From Pseudomonadota bacterium (GTDB lineage Bacteria; Pseudomonadota; Gammaproteobacteria; Burkholderiales; Rhodocyclaceae): a stretch of DNA of 64,000 nucleotides. The translations under genes and the position numbers were made by a program. Positions 37,627 to 55,533 of this stretch are shown piece by piece. The first letter of the stretch is position 1, and every line of letters starts with the position of its first letter. The DNA is taken from positions 186,001 to 250,000 of the forward strand of contig JAGTRS010000006.1 of NCBI GenBank assembly GCA_018262195.1. The letters run 5' to 3'. The notes below the pieces were generated by a model that was not told the DNA's origin, ran no database searches, and saw only the letters and a list, made by a program, of their open reading frames with translations.

Positions 37627-38904
37627 TCAGGCCTTGATCTTGAAGCTGTCGGCGTACTTGGCCGGGTCCTTGCCGTCCCAGACCACACCGTCGATCAGCT
37701 TGTGGCTGCGCATGTCGCTCTTTGGCAGCGCAACACCGGCAGCGGTGGCGCCCTGCTTGTAGATATCGACGCGGTTGACCTGCTTGGCAACGGCCAGGTA
37801 ATCCGGGTGGCTCTTCAGCAAACCCCAGCGCTTGTGCTGAGTCAGGAACCAAATGCCGTCGCTGAGGTAGGGGAAATTGACCGTACCTTCGTTGAAGAAC
37901 TTCATGCAGTTCTTGTCATCCCAGCTCTTGCCCAGACCATTCTGGTAACGGCCGAGCATGCGGGCAACGATGACTTCGGTGTCGGTATTGACATAGGACT
38001 TGCTGGCAATGGTTTCAGCCGTCTTCTGCTTGTTGGCGATGGAGGCGTCGATCCACTTGCCGGCATCAAGAATCGCCGCGACGACGGCACGGGCCGTGTT
38101 CGGGTTTTGCTTGACCCAGTCGGCTGTGGTGCCGAGCACCTTTTCCGGGTGGTCGGTCCAGATATCCTGCGTCGTCGTAGCGGTGAAGCCGATGTTGTCC
38201 ATGATGGCGCGGTTGTTCCAAGGCTCGCCAACACAGAAACCATCCATGTTGCCGACACGCATGTTGGCGACCATCTGCGGTGGCGGCACGGTGATGGTCT
38301 TGACGTCCTTCAGGGGATTGATGCCCTGAGAAGCCAGCCAGTAGTACAGCCACATGGCGTGGGTGCCGGTCGGGAAGGTCTGGGCGAAGGTGTATTCGCG
38401 CTCCTTCTTGGCAATCAACTTGGCCAGGCTGGCGCCATCGGTGGCGCCCTTGTCCTTGAGCTGGTTGGAGAGTGTGATGGCCTGACCGTTGTGATTCAGG
38501 TTCATCAGCACATTCATGTCCTTCTTCGGACCGCCGACACCGAGTTGCACGCCGTAGATGAGGCCGTACAAGACGTGGGCGGCGTCGAGTTCGCCATTGA
38601 CCAGCTTGTCGCGCACCGAAGCCCACGAGGCTTCCTTGGTCGGGATGATCTTGATGCCGTATTTCTCATCGAACTTCATGACCGAAGCCATGACGACGGA
38701 GGCGCAGTCGGTGAGCGGGATGAAGCCGATACGGACTTCCTTCTTTTCGGGGGCGTCGGAACCAGCGGCCCAGGCACCGCTGCGAACGCCGGGAGGGACC
38801 ATGGCCATCAGAGAGGCTCCCAGTGCAGTTGAAACGAAATCACGACGTGAAAAGCTCGGCTTGTCAGCGACGACTTCCGGTGAGGCCAGTTTCTTGTCTT
38901 CCAT
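37627..38904 (-). CDS. nrtA: nitrate-binding ABC transporter periplasmic protein
   Basis: This 425-aa substrate-binding protein begins with a twin-arginine signal (SFSRRDFVSTALGASL near residues 17-32). The mature part has VRIGFIPLTDCASVVMA, HVLYGLIYGVQLG and FCVGEPWNNRA, typical of NrtA/CmpA nitrate/bicarbonate-binding proteins. It is the first gene of nrtABD. Its 140-nt leader carries hairpins and a terminator, and a sigma-54 promoter lies upstream. NasS is the regulatory NrtA paralogue, but an exported protein like this cannot serve as cytoplasmic NasS. Confidence 0.93.
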   Translation of the reverse strand: MEDKKLASPEVVADKPSFSRRDFVSTALGASLMAMVPPGVRSGAWAAGSDAPEKKEVRIGFIPLTDCASVVMASVMKFDEKYGIKIIPTKEASWASVRDKLVNGELDAAHVLYGLIYGVQLGVGGPKKDMNVLMNLNHNGQAITLSNQLKDKGATDGASLAKLIAKKEREYTFAQTFPTGTHAMWLYYWLASQGINPLKDVKTITVPPPQMVANMRVGNMDGFCVGEPWNNRAIMDNIGFTATTTQDIWTDHPEKVLGTTADWVKQNPNTARAVVAAILDAGKWIDASIANKQKTAETIASKSYVNTDTEVIVARMLGRYQNGLGKSWDDKNCMKFFNEGTVNFPYLSDGIWFLTQHKRWGLLKSHPDYLAVAKQVNRVDIYKQGATAAGVALPKSDMRSHKLIDGVVWDGKDPAKYADSFKIKA

Positions 38905-38930
38905 TGCTTGCTCCTTGATTGCGAGAATCT

Positions 38931-38986
38931 AAAAACAAAATGGGCGTCTCATCCTGGCCGCCGGTTGGCAGCTCGGATGGACGCCC
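38931..38986 (-). terminator. leader attenuator upstream of nrtA
   Basis: In the nrtA leader GGGCGTC.ATCC pairs with GGAT..GACGCCC around a 20-base loop and is followed by ATTTTGTTTTT. It is an intrinsic terminator sitting 27 bases before the nrtA ATG, so it should block transcription unless antitermination occurs. Confidence 0.8.
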
Positions 38987-38994
38987 TTGTCCTT

Positions 38995-39036
38995 GAATCG
39001 GCTTTCGCTCGACTCTCGCCCGGCCGCCATTGACCG
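38995..39036 (-). promoter_or_regulatory. ANTAR-binding tandem hairpins in the nrtA leader RNA
   Basis: Reading the minus strand, hairpin 1 is CGGUC-AAUGGC-GGCCG (39036-39021). It has a six-base loop with A at position 1 and G at 4. After a 5-base linker, hairpin 2 is GAGUCG-AGCGAAAGC-CGAUUC (39015-38995), whose loop also has A1 and G4 but is longer. Paired hexaloops with A1/G4 are the known NasR/NasT recognition element. The attenuator follows 8 bases later. Confidence 0.65.
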
Positions 39037-39055
39037 TGCGTTTTGATAGGACTAT

Positions 39056-39071
39056 TGCAATGGCCGTGCCA
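39056..39071 (-). promoter_or_regulatory. sigma-54 promoter of nrtABD
   Basis: The minus strand reads TGGCACG-GCCA-TTGCA, a full match to the RpoN consensus with GG and GC separated by 10 bases. Initiation is predicted near 39045, giving a leader of about 140 nt. Confidence 0.85.
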
Positions 39072-39072
39072 G

Positions 39073-39108
39073 GTGTAGTTATTTGGAACTAGTTCCAAAT
39101 AACTACAC
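39073..39108. repeat. 36-bp perfect palindrome upstream of nrtA
   Basis: GTGTAGTTATTTGGAACT is followed directly by its exact reverse complement, with no spacer. It abuts the -24 box of the nrtA sigma-54 promoter. The central AACTAGTT and A/T-rich flanks recur in a 26-bp near-palindrome upstream of narK (47745-47770). There is no T run, so it is more likely an operator than a terminator of nasT. Confidence 0.8.
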
Positions 39109-39160
39109 TGTTTTCAATGACTTGGGATTTGTTTTTCCCGACCAGTCAGGCCGGAACCGA

Positions 39161-39177
39161 TGCACCGTTGCAGTGCA
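39161..39177. promoter_or_regulatory. NtrC-like binding site upstream of nrtA
   Basis: TGCACCGTTGCAGTGCA matches the NtrC dyad pattern GCAC-N7-GTGC with symmetric TGCA ends. It lies about 90 bp upstream of the -24 element, a usual enhancer distance. Confidence 0.65.
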
Positions 39178-39200
39178 GCATGGCTTTTTATCGCACAGGT

Positions 39201-39776
39201 TTAGAGCAGCACCCGCGCCATATCGATCACATCGCGCGCCACCTTGGCCATCGACTGACCACGTTCCATCGCCAGCTTGCGCATGGCGTGATACGCCGCA
39301 TCCTCATCGAGGCCACGGGCTTTCATCAGAACACCCTTGGCCTTGTCGACCAGCTTGCGGTCGGAAAGCTTCTTGGAAATGTCATCGAGTTCACGGCGCA
39401 AAGCCTGCGTATCTTCAAAACGCGCCCGCGCCACTTCGACGATCGGCTTGATCCGCTTTGAATCGAGACCATCGACAATATAGGCTGAAACCCCCGCTTT
39501 AACGGCGTCGCGTATGGTTTCCTGGCCATCTTCCTGGGTAAAAATCACCACCGGACGCGGCATGTCCTTGTTCATCGCCGCCAGATTTTCGAGGGTATCG
39601 CGGCTCGGGCTGTCGGTATCGATCAGGATCACATCGGGCTGCAGCCTTTCGACTTCTGCCGTCAGATTTTCGGAGCCGGCCAGAATGGCAGCGACTTGAT
39701 AACCGGCAAGCGCCAGCCCGGCACAAATTTCGCCTGCACGAGAACGGGATTCGTCAATAACAAGTACGGTAAGCAT
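39201..39776 (-). CDS. nasT: ANTAR-domain antiterminator, NasT type
   Basis: This 191-aa protein has a receiver-like domain (MLTVLVIDESRSRAGEI; VILIDTDSPSRDTLENL) and a C-terminal ANTAR three-helix domain (KKLSDRKLVDKAKGVLMKAR; AYHAMRKLAMERGQSMAKVA). ANTAR proteins bind paired hexaloop hairpins in leader RNA and prevent termination. Matching leaders occur before nrtA, narK and nirB here. No cytoplasmic NasS sensor gene is adjacent. It lies 17 bases after the chelatase gene on the same strand. Confidence 0.9.
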   Translation of the reverse strand: MLTVLVIDESRSRAGEICAGLALAGYQVAAILAGSENLTAEVERLQPDVILIDTDSPSRDTLENLAAMNKDMPRPVVIFTQEDGQETIRDAVKAGVSAYIVDGLDSKRIKPIVEVARARFEDTQALRRELDDISKKLSDRKLVDKAKGVLMKARGLDEDAAYHAMRKLAMERGQSMAKVARDVIDMARVLL

Positions 39777-44587: not shown

Positions 44588-46276
44588 CTATCGCAATAAT
44601 TTCAGTAACAACACCAGGTTGATGGCAAGCGAGATGGCTGCAATGCCTTTCCAGAAGCGCAGCGGATTGCGCTGCGCCAGCGGCTGCCGACTTGGCGCCG
44701 CAATGGGTCGGGTCGCTCCGCGTTCCAGGGGGAGCAGGAATTCCTCGGCCGTTTCGAAACGGTCCTTGGCCTCCCTGGCTACCGCCTTGAGCAGGATGTT
44801 TTCGAGCCAGCCGGGGATTTCCGGCCGCCAGCGGGTCGGGCGAGCCGGTTCGCCAAACTTTGGCGTCTGGAAGGGTTCGATTTCGCCGTATGGGTATTTG
44901 CGGGTTAGCAGGTGATAGAGCGTGACACCGGCGGCGTAGAGGTCGTAGCCGGGTTGTGGCTCCGGATTCTCGAACAGTTCAGGCGCCATGTAGGAGGGCG
45001 TGCCGGCGTGGCCGATCGGATCACCGGCCTTGCGTTCGGCCAGACTGACGGCGACCCCCAGATCGAGGATGCGCAGCACGCCGTCCTGCCCGAGGTGAAT
45101 GTTGTCCGGCTTGATGTCGCGATGCACGATGTCGAGCCGATGCAGGCTGGCGATGGCCTTGAGCAGCGCCACGCCATGGCGCACCACCTCGCCGACCGGG
45201 AAATGCTGGTCGCCATCAAGACGGGCTTGCAGGGTTGCACCGGCATGCCAGGTCATCAGGTAATACAGACAACTGCGCTGCTCCGCCGGCACGACTTGCG
45301 GAAAGAAAGGCGAAACGACGCGGCGAGCGCGCCACTCCTCCATCAGCAGGGCCGCGGTCGCATCGGTATCGCCCTCCATGCCCGGCTGCAGGGTTTTGAG
45401 GACCAATTGCTGGCCATTGCGCGGATTCCTGACGCGATAAAGCAGGGTCTCCCGGGAGTCGTGCAGGATATCCTCGACGACCAAGCCATCCAGTTCGTGG
45501 CCAGGCTTCATGCGGTGCGGCAAAGGCAGGCTGGCCGCTCCCTCCAGACTATCGCGCAGATTGGCTGGCGGCAGGGCCAGCACATCGACCACCACGGCGC
45601 TGGCATTGTCATGCCCGCCGTGGGCAATGGCCAGGCTGGTCAGCGCCGCCGCGGCGCCTTGCGGCTCGGGGTGATCAAGCAGTACCTCAGCCATCAAGGC
45701 ATCGGGCAATACGCCCCAGACGCCATCGGAAACCAGCAGGAAACGGTCGCTGACCGCCAGTTCGCCATCGGTGAAATCCATCAGCACGCGCGGATCGAGG
45801 CCGATGGCCCGCGACAGCACATTGTTCAGCTCCGGGTGCTCCCAGGTGTGATCGACCGTCAGTTGATGCAGGCGCCCTTCCTGAAACCGGTAGATGCGCG
45901 AATCGCCGATGTGCGCGGTGTAGAAGCGCCGGCCGCGTAAAACCACGACCGACAACGTCGTTGCCATGCCCGCCAGTTCGGCGTTGCGGCTACCCTCGGC
46001 GATGACCCAGCGATTCAACGCCGTCGATACCGTCTCGATGGCCCGCGGCACGCCCCAGGTATCCGGCGTTGCAAAGTAGTCGGCGAGCAGGCCGCGCACC
46101 GTGTATTCAGCCGCCTCGCGCCCGCCCTTGTGGCCGCCGATCCCGTCGGCCACGGCAGCGATGATTCCCTTGTTTTCGAGGTCCTGCCCCTCCGGCGTCG
46201 CAACGCCGCAGAAATCCTCGTTCCGCTCGCGCGGCCCGGTCAGGGAGGAATGTCCGAGATCAAATTTAAGGGGCAT
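44588..46276 (-). CDS. bifunctional PP2C phosphatase-Ser/Thr kinase (narK-linked)
   Basis: This 562-aa fusion has an N-terminal PP2C domain (about 1-235) with GPRERNEDF, AAVADGIGGHKGG, AHIGDSRIYRF, LLVSDGVWGV and GGHDNASAV, a complete metal-site set. The C-terminal Hanks kinase (about 265-520) has HRDIKPDNIHLG and SYMAPELFE, but DLG replaces DFG (ILDLGVAVS). A final membrane helix (about 540-560) would anchor it facing the cytoplasm. It follows narK by 84 bases. A PP2C-kinase beside the nitrate transporter gene is also known in Pseudomonas nitrate clusters. The target is unknown. Confidence 0.92.
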   Translation of the reverse strand: MPLKFDLGHSSLTGPRERNEDFCGVATPEGQDLENKGIIAAVADGIGGHKGGREAAEYTVRGLLADYFATPDTWGVPRAIETVSTALNRWVIAEGSRNAELAGMATTLSVVVLRGRRFYTAHIGDSRIYRFQEGRLHQLTVDHTWEHPELNNVLSRAIGLDPRVLMDFTDGELAVSDRFLLVSDGVWGVLPDALMAEVLLDHPEPQGAAAALTSLAIAHGGHDNASAVVVDVLALPPANLRDSLEGAASLPLPHRMKPGHELDGLVVEDILHDSRETLLYRVRNPRNGQQLVLKTLQPGMEGDTDATAALLMEEWRARRVVSPFFPQVVPAEQRSCLYYLMTWHAGATLQARLDGDQHFPVGEVVRHGVALLKAIASLHRLDIVHRDIKPDNIHLGQDGVLRILDLGVAVSLAERKAGDPIGHAGTPSYMAPELFENPEPQPGYDLYAAGVTLYHLLTRKYPYGEIEPFQTPKFGEPARPTRWRPEIPGWLENILLKAVAREAKDRFETAEEFLLPLERGATRPIAAPSRQPLAQRNPLRFWKGIAAISLAINLVLLLKLLR

Positions 46277-47596: not shown

Positions 47597-47626
47597 AAAA
47601 AATCGGGAGACGACCGAAGCCGTCCG
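47597..47626 (-). terminator. leader attenuator upstream of narK
   Basis: GACGGC-UUCG-GUCGUC (47624-47609) then UCCCGAUUUUUU. The UCUCCCGA 3' part can also pair with UCGGGGGG further upstream, giving a longer nested stem that would compete with ANTAR hairpin 1. It lies 22 bases before the narK ATG. Confidence 0.65.
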
Positions 47627-47640
47627 AAATGGGTGCGCAC

Positions 47641-47676
47641 GTGAATCCGTTATCACCCCCCGACGCCCTTGCCGGG
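47641..47676 (-). promoter_or_regulatory. ANTAR-binding tandem hairpins in the narK leader RNA
   Basis: Hairpin 1 is CCCGGC-AAGGGC-GUCGGG (47676-47659), a 6-bp stem (one G-U pair) with a hexaloop having A1 and G4. Hairpin 2, two bases later, is GUGA-U-AACGGA-U-UCAC (47656-47641), hexaloop AACGGA with A1 and G4 closed by a U-U mismatch. The attenuator follows. Confidence 0.65.
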
Positions 47677-47698
47677 AAATGCGCGATACATCCCTATT

Positions 47699-47714
47699 AG
47701 CAACCCCCATGCCA
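47699..47714 (-). promoter_or_regulatory. sigma-54 promoter of narK
   Basis: The minus strand reads TGGCATG-GGGG-TTGCT, with GG and GC 10 bases apart. Predicted start is near 47688, giving a leader of about 113 nt. The 428-bp gap between narK and the next gene also holds the palindrome and NtrC-like site; nothing else is evident in 47798-48004. Confidence 0.8.
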
Positions 47715-49741: not shown

Positions 49742-51469
49742 TCAGTGCAGACGGACGACGCTGACCAGAATGAGCGACAGCATGAGCACGAAGGACACAC
49801 TTTTCCAGAAAATGACCGGGTTGCGCTCGATCAGCGGCGGCTTGGTCTTGTTGAGAAACTCGCGGTTGGGGTGGTGCAGGTCGAAGATGAACTCCGACAG
49901 CTCCTCGTGGCGCGCCAGGGGGTCAGGTTCGACCGCCTTGCGAATGGCGTCGTCGATCCAGGCCGGGATTTCGCGCTCCTCGCTGAGTACGCTCTTGTAG
50001 GCCAGTTTTTTCTGCGCCGCCTTGGTGCGTGACTTGGGCACCAGCGTACCGTAGGGAAAATCGCCGGAGAGCATCTGGTAGGCGATGACGCCAAGCGAGT
50101 AGATGTCGGAACGCTGCGTGCCCTGCTCGCCGAGGAAGTACTCCGGCGCCGCATAGAGCGCCGCACCGAGCAGGTTGATCTGCTCGATCGGCGTGTCGAC
50201 CTCCTCCAGCCCGGCGACGCGGGTGGCGCCGAAATCGATGATCTTCACCGTGCCGGTGGTGTCGATCATAATGTTGTCCGGCTTCAGGTCCTGATAGACC
50301 ATTTCCAGCCGGTGAAAAGCCTGCAGTCCCTTGGCGACCTGCTCCAGGATGCCGCGCACGGTCGGCAGATCGGGCTTGGGATTGTCGATCAGCCATTGCG
50401 ACAGCGTCTGGCCCTCGATGTATTCGGTGACGACGTAGATGCTCTGGCGCTGCCGCGTCTGGGCGCAGGGCTTGAGCACATGCGCGCTGTTGATGCGGCG
50501 GGCGATCCACTCTTCGAGCAGGAAGCGTTCGAGTGCCGCCGGGTTGGCCTGCATGTCGACGGATGGGGTCTTGATGACGACGCGCTCGCCGCTGTCTTTA
50601 TCGACGGCCAGATAAATGTGGCTGCGGGCGCTGCGCTTGATGACGCGGACGATCTGGAAACCCTCGAACTCGTCGCGTGCTTCGAGTTGCGGCGGGCACG
50701 GCAGGTCGGAAAGCTGGCGGAATACCTCGTTGGCTTCCGGGTCCGGCAGTTCGTCGATACGGATCAACTGGATGGTTAGGTTGTCGCCGCTGCCGCGCTG
50801 CAGGGCTTCGTCGGCAATCGCTTTCGCTGCCGCGTCGAGGTCGGTGCCGGCGGCGATGGCGGCTTGGACAAAGGCGGCGTCGGTGTATTCGTATACGCCA
50901 TCGGTGGCCAACACCAGCAGGTCGCCGACCGCCACCTGCACCTGCACGTAGTCGATCTCGACCTTGCGGTCCATGCCCAGCGCCCGCGCCAGATAGCTTT
51001 GCTGCGACGACACCCAGACCCGGTGATCCTCGGTCAGTTGCGTGAATTCGCTGCCGCGCAGGCGGTAGATCCGCGCGTCCCCAATGTGAAAAAGGTGCGC
51101 CGTCGTGGACTTGATGACCAGCCCGCTGAAGGTGCAGACGTAGCCGCGCTCGCGGTCGTAGCGATGCTGGCTCTGCTGGGTCTGCGAATGCAGCCAGGAA
51201 TTGGTCGCCGTCAGCACATGCTCGCCGGACTTCTTGACCGACCAGGCATCGGAGGTGCAGTAATAGTCCTCAAGAAAGCCGGTCACCGCCGACTGCGCCG
51301 CCTCCTGGCTGACCTGGCTGCTGCTGATGCCATCGGCCAGCGCCACGGCAATGCCCTTGGCCGACAGTTGCGGCTCACGCGGGATGCACACCCCGTGGAA
51401 ATCCTGGTTCAGTTCCTTCTTGCCCCTGTCGGAATACTGCCCGACGGCAACGCGCAGATGACGGCTCAT
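49742..51469 (-). CDS. bifunctional PP2C phosphatase-Ser/Thr kinase (nir-linked)
   Basis: This 575-aa paralogue of the narK-linked fusion has PP2C (about 1-240) with KKELNQDFHG, VALADGISSS, FHIGDARIYRL, LLVLATDGVYE and GSGDNLTIQ. The kinase (about 270-525) has VIKTP (Lys), YQDLKPDNIMID (HRD changed to YQD), IIDFGATRVAG and YAAPEYFLG. A C-terminal membrane helix (about 550-572) follows KPPLIERNPVIFWKS; both paralogues share RNP.xFWK before this helix. It lies behind a terminator that ends nirBD and the channel gene. Confidence 0.92.
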   Translation of the reverse strand: MSRHLRVAVGQYSDRGKKELNQDFHGVCIPREPQLSAKGIAVALADGISSSQVSQEAAQSAVTGFLEDYYCTSDAWSVKKSGEHVLTATNSWLHSQTQQSQHRYDRERGYVCTFSGLVIKSTTAHLFHIGDARIYRLRGSEFTQLTEDHRVWVSSQQSYLARALGMDRKVEIDYVQVQVAVGDLLVLATDGVYEYTDAAFVQAAIAAGTDLDAAAKAIADEALQRGSGDNLTIQLIRIDELPDPEANEVFRQLSDLPCPPQLEARDEFEGFQIVRVIKRSARSHIYLAVDKDSGERVVIKTPSVDMQANPAALERFLLEEWIARRINSAHVLKPCAQTRQRQSIYVVTEYIEGQTLSQWLIDNPKPDLPTVRGILEQVAKGLQAFHRLEMVYQDLKPDNIMIDTTGTVKIIDFGATRVAGLEEVDTPIEQINLLGAALYAAPEYFLGEQGTQRSDIYSLGVIAYQMLSGDFPYGTLVPKSRTKAAQKKLAYKSVLSEEREIPAWIDDAIRKAVEPDPLARHEELSEFIFDLHHPNREFLNKTKPPLIERNPVIFWKSVSFVLMLSLILVSVVRLH

Positions 51470-52554: not shown

Positions 52555-52866
52555 TCAGGCGGCCATGAAGACTTCGCCGTTTTCGACTTTGACTTCGAAG
52601 GTTTTGCAGCCGCCGACGTCCGGCGCCACGGCCTTGCCATCGTCAAGACCGATATTCCAGCCGTGCAGCGGGCAGGTGACGCGCTTGCCGTGAACGATCC
52701 CCTGCGACAGCGGGCCACCCTTATGCGGGCATTTGTCGTGCATGGCAAAGACTTCGTCGTCCGAGGTTCGGAAGACGGCGATCTTGCCGCGCTCCGGCCA
52801 ATGCACGACGCGCGAACCGAGTTGCGGGATGTCTTCCAGCTTGCAGATCAGTTTCCAGTTGCTCAT
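52555..52866 (-). CDS. nirD: assimilatory nitrite reductase small subunit
   Basis: This 103-aa Rieske-like protein has the [2Fe-2S] ligands CPHKGG and CPLHGW both present (about residues 45-50 and 65-70). ATG 52866 gives the family start MSNWKLICKLEDIPQLGSRV. It lies 23 bases after nirB and partners the NirB catalytic chain in ammonium-forming nitrite reduction. Confidence 0.94.
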   Translation of the reverse strand: MSNWKLICKLEDIPQLGSRVVHWPERGKIAVFRTSDDEVFAMHDKCPHKGGPLSQGIVHGKRVTCPLHGWNIGLDDGKAVAPDVGGCKTFEVKVENGEVFMAA

Positions 52867-55334: not shown

Positions 55335-55385
55335 GGTTGACTCCAACGTTGCGCGCACCCAGAGGTGCAAAATTTATTTCAGCGC

Positions 55386-55420
55386 ATGACGTCGTTGCCA
55401 TCGGCTCGCCTTCGTTGGCG
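55386..55420 (-). promoter_or_regulatory. ANTAR-binding tandem hairpins in the nirB leader RNA
   Basis: Hairpin 1 is CGCC-AACGAA-GGCG (55420-55407). After a 5-base linker, hairpin 2 is AUGGC-AACGAC-GUCAU (55401-55386). Both have six-base loops starting AACG, so A1 and G4 are both present, the best match in the window to the ANTAR recognition element. I see no clear T-tract terminator between these and the nirB ATG. The RBS lies in a small GUUG-GAGU-CAAC hairpin. Confidence 0.7.
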
Positions 55421-55447
55421 GGGAATTCGCTGTTCCGATACTGCTAT

Positions 55448-55463
55448 TGCAATCCGCGTGCCA
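55448..55463 (-). promoter_or_regulatory. sigma-54 promoter of nirB
   Basis: The minus strand reads TGGCACG-CGGA-TTGCA with the required 10-base GG-GC spacing. It shares CTATTGCAAT with the nrtA promoter. Predicted start is near 55437, giving a leader of about 103 nt. Nothing else is evident in 55565-55684. Confidence 0.85.
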
Positions 55464-55516: not shown

Positions 55517-55533
55517 CGCACCAAATTCGTGCA
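55517..55533. promoter_or_regulatory. NtrC-like site upstream of nirB
   Basis: CGCACCAAATTCGTGCA has GCAC-N7-GTGC with an A/T centre. Two further GGTGCA half-sites at 55548 and 55559 are exactly 11 bp apart, one helical turn. The site is about 55 bp from the -24 element. Confidence 0.6.

Follow-up and report, generated by a model that had tools for sequence, protein, structure and literature searches.

A conserved ANTAR-type leader of nirB in a Rhodocyclaceae bacterium is most likely a ribosome-site switch activated by NasT

In a 64,000-nucleotide stretch of DNA from a Rhodocyclaceae bacterium (the window), the leader of the nitrite reductase gene nirB is, as judged by its conservation, a real ANTAR-type target. 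Release of the ribosome-binding site (RBS) by NasT is its most likely output. We consider it probable that the leader is a NasT-activated ribosome-site switch, i.e., a translational variant of the ANTAR attenuator. In favour of the switch, we observed the motif, its conservation, some covariation, the predicted energetics, and the presence of NasT.

Binding of NasT, dependence on nitrate, and translation as the output are what we infer. The leader would be a two-state RNA switch read by NasT. When active NasT is absent, the loop and 3′ arm of hairpin P2, together with the adjacent strand of P0, would pair with the strand that ends in the nirB Shine-Dalgarno (SD) sequence. The resulting anti-SD helix, with P3 as its apical stem, would lead to poor ribosome binding. 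When nitrate or nitrite is present, NasT would be free to bind, by likeness to known NasT systems. It would grip the A1/G4 loops of P1 and P2 and keep P2 (and P0) closed. Closed P2 would break the anti-SD helix, free the ribosome site, and allow translation of nirB. The nitrogen-limitation signal would enter through the sigma-54 promoter. In this form, the leader would be the usual ANTAR attenuator with an RBS-sequestering helix in place of the terminator. The features are listed in Table 1.

Table 1 Features of the window, with coordinates counted from its first nucleotide
Feature	Coordinates	Strand	Remarks
NtrC-like dyad GCAC-N7-GTGC	55518..55532	.	Pattern match, upstream of nirB promoter
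Sigma-54 promoter TGGCACGCGGATTGCAA	55463-55447	-	Pattern match
P0 5′ strand CAGCG	55428..55432	-	Pairs with 55380-55384; encloses both hexaloop hairpins
P1 hexaloop hairpin CGCC-AACGAA-GGCG	55420-55407	-	Two stem pairs show double changes; paired in 99.2% of cells
P2 hexaloop hairpin AUGGC-AACGAC-GUCAU	55401-55386	-	One G-U pair; 100% of cells paired in 49 leaders
P0 3′ strand CGCUG	55380..55384	-	Partly reused by anti-SD helix
P3 hairpin GCACC-UCUG-GGUGC	55355..55368	-	Apical stem of anti-SD fold
SD-side strand GCGCAACGUUGGAGUC	55354-55339	-	95.9% of cells paired
Shine-Dalgarno GGAG	55344-55341	-	Identical in 49 leaders
nirB, nitrite reductase large subunit, 814 aa	52890..55334 (ATG 55334)	-	Pfam
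nirD-like small subunit	52555..52866	-	Open frame after nirB; presumed nirD-like by position
narK leader	47597..47714	-	Sigma-54 47714-47698; terminator-like hairpin 47625-47608; U6 run
nasT, receiver-like domain + ANTAR	39201-39776	-	PF03861 (3.3e-19) and PF00072
nrtA leader	38931..39071	-	Sigma-54 39071-39055; terminator with U-tract 38940-38931

The sequence-only reading had described a tandem ANTAR-type motif behind a sigma-54 promoter. All of its elements are present, with the right sequences and coordinates, and all lie on the minus strand, which it had left unstated. The tandem six-base-loop hairpins with a short linker that mark an ANTAR-target RNA were found, the linker between P1 and P2 being AGCCG (5 nt) as described, and both loops of the window leader carry A1 and G4. 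Folding of the plus strand of the region gave nothing notable. By the usual spacing rule, transcription of nirB would start about 12 nt beyond the GC of the sigma-54 element, near 55437. Hence, the hairpins lie about 17–51 nt downstream of the predicted start, which bears out the earlier distance of about 17–52 nt. The NtrC-like dyad was found with a presumed consensus, and the pattern occurs three times in the window against 2.4 expected by chance; the dyad is thus supported by its position only. P3 was considered as an NtrC site and dropped because its loop length varies.

Matches to the sigma-54 pattern are rare by chance, the window holding three against 0.09 expected. Each of the three heads a dual-hexaloop leader, namely nrtA (39071), narK (47714), and nirB (55463), with the second narK hexaloop identified by eye. 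Two A1/G4 hexaloops on 4-bp stems, joined by a short linker, are by themselves not rare in the window (3 vs. 1.3, sd 1.2, in Markov shuffles), and the dual hexaloop that separates nirD from nirC (52534-52494) is no more than chance would give. The sigma-54 pattern and a dual hexaloop occurred together in 0 of 40 shuffles. By comparison of leaders across genomes, the reality of the nirB leader motif is settled by conservation. A covariance model of the core found 28 nirB leaders at 52–87 bits in 27 of 36 genus genomes, 22 of these leaders having themselves built the model. The leader core upstream of one nirB match (G030:C8:201148-202368) still scores 82.8 bits; this match (77%) spans residues 2-408 only and contains one in-frame TGA. 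The main alignment consists of 49 distinct nirB leaders, and the named loci with this leader type are mostly titled Dechloromonas, Azonexus, or Azonexaceae/Rhodocyclaceae, with one Accumulibacter. A1 and G4 are present in 49/49 aligned leaders, a figure that for P2 is partly produced by leader selection.

In this genome (assembly 99.78% complete, 9.95% contaminated), the NasT-like protein is the only ANTAR (PF03861) protein found, and it is encoded in the same window as nirB. Among the 60 genomes searched, that of the window included, 42 have an ANTAR protein. In genome G010 (99% complete), no ANTAR protein was found and nirB is still 87% identical; the loop residues and the SD-side strand are both gone from its nirB leader (L023), as observed in this single genome. 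In 23 of 24 genus nirB leaders, which were located via the nirB start and whose 5′ ends were set with a list of loop-like words that fitted L023 too, A1/G4 is kept in both loops, L023 being the exception. The sole ANTAR protein, the kept loops, and their loss in ANTAR-less G010 support the earlier suggestion that NasT probably controls nirB after initiation. Since NasT binding to the leader is inferred, the leader could instead be no NasT target, its conservation being due to another factor or to a constraint at the DNA level. The A1/G4 loops, the compensatory stem changes in P1 and P3, the P3 loop that varies in sequence and length, and the finding of no ANTAR protein other than NasT speak against this, and we regard it as extremely unlikely.

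With its receiver-like domain and ANTAR, NasT resembles the NasT of NasT/NasS nitrate systems, which are also known from Azotobacter. Unlike in those systems, no NasS-like gene was recognised adjoining nasT in the PF13379 search (window 37627-39776). The neighbours of nasT in the window are nrtA, which has a Tat-like leader peptide by eye, and a divergent hybrid kinase. One further strong PF13379 protein is encoded elsewhere in the genome, and both strong ones look exported by eye; the genome also has two weak matches. In seven loci (L093, L094, L097-L100, and L112), nasT begins ~0.8–0.9 kb after nirB, perhaps behind nirD in one operon. NasT may therefore boost its own synthesis via the nirB leader in these loci.

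P0, P3, and the anti-SD strand down to 55339 lie outside the coordinates of the earlier reading. P0 is almost invariant, with 98.4% of cells paired in the 49 leaders. In P3, an A-U pair is changed to G-C in 5/49 leaders, and the loop is variable in sequence (identity 0.50) and length. The SD-side strand common to the aligned nirB leaders is GCGCAACGUUGGAG, and it can pair with the end of the P2 5′ arm, the P2 loop, the P2 3′ arm, and the P0 3′ strand. Its column identity is 0.94, compared with 0.72 for the spacer and 0.64 for the gap between SD and ATG. Two folds are predicted. Fold A comprises P0, P1, P2, and P3 and is 98.6% paired with 13 double-change cells. In fold B, which excludes fold A, the SD-side strand pairs with the P2 loop, with the 3′ arm of that hairpin, and with the 3′ strand of P0. 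As in the classic ANTAR attenuator, P2 is thus mutually exclusive with a downstream helix, here the predicted anti-SD helix.

In the 49 nirB leaders, 95.9% of the 685 cells of the anti-SD helix are paired, and controls in which the strand was slid reached at most 49.2%. Between P2 loop position 6 and the SD side, the pair is C-G in 45, G-C in 2, U-G in 1, and unpaired in 1 leader. Double changes occur at pair 38-96 (one leader) and at pair 45-89 (two leaders, L087 and L150, in which G-C replaces C-G). In L100, an altered loop base and two extra SD-side bases are found, and pairing is maintained. Pair 47-87 is broken in 6/49 leaders and pair 54-82 in 8/48. A P1:SD pairing (CCAACG:CGUUGG) is 98.6% paired yet without covariation. 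It was kept as a possible addition only; L107 might use it, judged by eye.

A group of Thauera narK leaders has the same layout in another sequence. In the genus to which G062 belongs (a genome titled Thauera and carrying L130), 12 of the 20 close narK loci have such a leader. The SD-side sequence of these leaders fits their own P2, e.g., GGC-AA-CGGAGUCAUGCG with CGCAUGACUCUG-GA-GCC, and A1 or G4 is absent from P2 in four of the 12 by reading (L160, L161, L175, and L177). In the combined 61 leaders, the loop position 6 pair is C-G in 45, A-U in 8, G-C in 6, U-G in 1, and unpaired in 1, and the neighbouring pair is A-U in 47, G-C in 8, and unpaired in 6. In the nine core pairs, double changes were counted in 23 cells (5.2 in shuffles). 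The covariation score is 0.219 against 0.122 (sd 0.009), and for both values, none of 500 shuffles was as high. The number of pairs with double changes and the number of pair types in the 61 leaders were no higher than in shuffles (268/500 and 361/500, respectively). In the 49 leaders, the score was reached by 2/500 shuffles, the double-change pair count by 32/500, and the double-change cell count by 35/500. With only the first 24 leaders, covariation fell short of significance (161/500 shuffles reached the score). The changes in these alignments go back to few independent events, and largely to one split between two groups. Covariation of loop position 6 with the SD side is, as far as the aligned leaders go, clear from few cases.

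Energy swaps and shuffles were set aside as support that is weaker than covariation. Mean duplex energies of cognate and swapped pairs are −19.4 vs. −15.0 for nirB and −22.6 vs. −16.6 for Thauera narK (11 of 12 leaders, L160 not being parsed). Non-cognate pairs within the own group are nearly as good (nirB −18.7, Thauera narK −19.8), the cognate pair is better than all swapped ones in just 5/49 nirB and 7/11 Thauera leaders, and 3–4% of shuffled SD segments are equally good.

In the predicted free ensemble of the 49 leaders, the mean probability of the anti-SD helix is 0.86 and that of P2 is 0.05. In five leaders (L022, L091, L092, L107, and L109), the anti-SD helix stays below 0.3. Opening a seven-base stretch at the SD costs a mean of 7.8 kcal/mol, and 3.95 kcal/mol when both hexaloops are held; the SD becomes easier to open by >0.5 kcal/mol in 44/49 leaders. 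With the hexaloops held, the four SD bases are on average only slightly more likely to be unpaired (0.59 vs. 0.51 in the free state), with a higher value in 34/49 leaders. The held (bound) fold costs a mean of 6.2 kcal/mol, and this predicted cost would have to be paid by NasT binding. The window nirB leader folds no better than shuffles (z −0.94 and −1.48). The low helix probability in five leaders, the small gain in unpaired SD bases, the cost of the bound fold, and this unremarkable stability speak against the switch.

As stated earlier on sight of the sequence, no terminator follows the hairpins: no minus-strand intrinsic terminator was found between P2 and nirB. The output had been left as either Rho-dependent or acting on the RBS. 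Comparative evidence favours the RBS, and Rho is less likely. In a Rho model, NasT would govern whether Rho or another factor ends transcription prematurely, within the leader or the first part of nirB, and the alternative fold would be relevant only because untranslated RNA is open to Rho. The lack of an intrinsic terminator in the nirB leader fits this model. A closed RBS would also expose nirB RNA to Rho; hence, such termination may follow from the RBS switch and not compete with it. A pure Rho model leaves the 94% conservation of the SD-side strand and its covariation with the P2 loop unexplained, and we consider it unlikely.

The window nrtA leader, judged by its sequence, is a classic ANTAR attenuator in the same genome, with hexaloops AAUGGC (39031-39026) and AAGGGC (38988-38983). 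Its promoter is directly adjoined, at the −24 element, by an inverted repeat at 39072-39109, which spans 38 bases and forms 17 pairs, all perfect except one G-T. An intrinsic terminator with U-tract is present in 24/24 nrtA rows of the same genus vs. 0/43 nirB rows of the window type, where rows are counted and some genomes enter twice. Thus, the terminator overlapping P2 of the classic attenuator was not found in the nirB leader. The mean pairing of the SD region to the ANTAR motif is 0.73 in nirB rows (>0.5 in 39/43) and 0.005 in nrtA rows. These counts bear on a rival in which antitermination is of the ordinary ANTAR kind, the terminator is weak or has escaped recognition, and SD complementarity does no more than stabilise a terminator-like hairpin. 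In its favour, the P2 loop and 3′ arm that enter the anti-SD helix also take part in the nrtA terminators and in the terminator-like helices seen in nirB leaders of Azospira, Alcaligenaceae, and some Thauera. As the U-tract after the helix was not found in any of the 43 nirB rows and kept in all 24 nrtA rows, we hold this explanation to be very unlikely.

In the terminator form as in the RBS form, the P2 loop and 3′ arm are where the alternative helix begins; hence, the change looks like a swap of the expression platform. By reading, the nirB leaders of Azospira, Alcaligenaceae, and Sheuella carry a terminator with a long U-run. The Thauera nirB leaders L122, L127, L129, and L134 have a terminator-like helix with about four U, and no clear terminator-like helix was seen in L126, L130, and L131. 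The hexaloop finder recognised only 7/23 narK rows and picked a different, disbelieved second loop for the window narK leader, so statements on narK rest on reading and folds. The window narK loops are AAGGGC (47670-47665) and AACGGA (47651-47646, closed by a U-U mismatch, by eye), and the leader may be of a terminator or mixed form. In 11 of 17 folded narK rows (L064-L069, L074, L083, L084, L116, and L151), the predicted fold joins the SD, with CGGAAAA or a like sequence, to the P1 5′ arm/junction, with UUUUCCG or a like sequence. In L065, both sides of this pairing differ and the pairing persists. This form does not apply to the rows L070, L071, L077, L088, and L150 or to the narK leader of the window. 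A search with model R2, using strict filters that lose weak matches, matched 6/399 order genomes, all of one genus. Two fusions of a PP2C phosphatase and a Ser/Thr kinase are encoded at 44588-46276 and 49742-51469, beside narK and nirC.

At Rfam gathering scores, tRNAs were the sole matches in the window, and nine relatives yielded no leader family. The narK RNA family RF03032 matches weakly across the nirB sigma-54 promoter and the P2 hexaloop (14.6 bits, far below the cut-off of 43.2). Hits to it came from 12/120 order genomes, none above cut-off. Of six sub-threshold loci (L192-L197), all five except L194, which was not parsed, combine dual A1/G4 hexaloops with a sigma-54 promoter and a U-tract. 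RF03032 may therefore be a sigma-54 ANTAR attenuator family.

The dual-hexaloop antiterminator is set out by Ramesh et al. 2012 (PMC3369931), who also state that many predicted ANTAR targets are without terminators and that these, some near the RBS, might control translation initiation. With the attenuators EutV/eutP and NasR/nasF described there, the nirB leader shares two A1/G4 hexaloops, exclusion of P2 by a downstream helix, and nitrogen genes as targets. It differs from them in that the downstream helix covers the SD, an intrinsic terminator is lacking, and P0 and P3 are added. The NasT papers on Paracoccus (PMC5424462) and Bradyrhizobium (PMC6759348) describe transcription antitermination by a NasT-type ANTAR protein at leaders of nitrate/nitrite assimilation genes. 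The protein type and target genes agree with our case, as does, for Paracoccus, the nitrogen-limitation (NtrC) input.

PMC8164766 describes ANTAR RNAs at the RBS in actinobacteria and cites translational repression in mycobacteria; PMC8934654 likewise mentions such RNAs or repression. ANTAR control of translation is already known as repression in mycobacteria, and in 2012 a translational output was foreseen for terminator-less targets. The nirB leader would have the output on translation in common with these RNAs. In the mycobacterial type, as outlined in PMC8164766, the dual hairpin contains the RBS or the start codon, and the bound protein represses. By analogy, NasT on the nirB leader might block ribosomes and repress nirB. 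In our leader, the SD (55344-55341) is outside the dual hairpin, ~40 nt beyond the end of P2 (55386), and binding should activate. The predicted free state pairs the SD side, held hexaloops lower the opening cost, and the nrtA leader of the window has the layout of one that NasT activates. Hence, we give next to no credence to repression. Activation by release of the RBS is found in the engineered NmPAL riboptoregulator, in which, according to PMC11381354, a protein on a leader hairpin frees a cis-repressed SD; it differs in being synthetic and in using another aptamer and a light signal. In the open-access literature, we found no report of a natural Proteobacteria ANTAR leader that activates by RBS release.

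Beyond the nirB switch itself, we lean slightly towards the view that NasT has two outputs in one cell, antitermination at nrtA and activation of translation at nirB (in relatives, narK), with the platform swapped gene by gene. The RBS form would be used at nirB of the Azonexus/Dechloromonas type and at narK in Thauera, and several Thauera nirB leaders would be terminator-like with a short U-run. On this view, the hexaloop bases read by NasT would also form part of the ribosome-blocking helix. If true, ANTAR leaders swap expression platforms as riboswitches do. One regulator would run both modes side by side, so that they could be compared in a single bacterium, and nitrite reductase could be gated apart from nitrate uptake.
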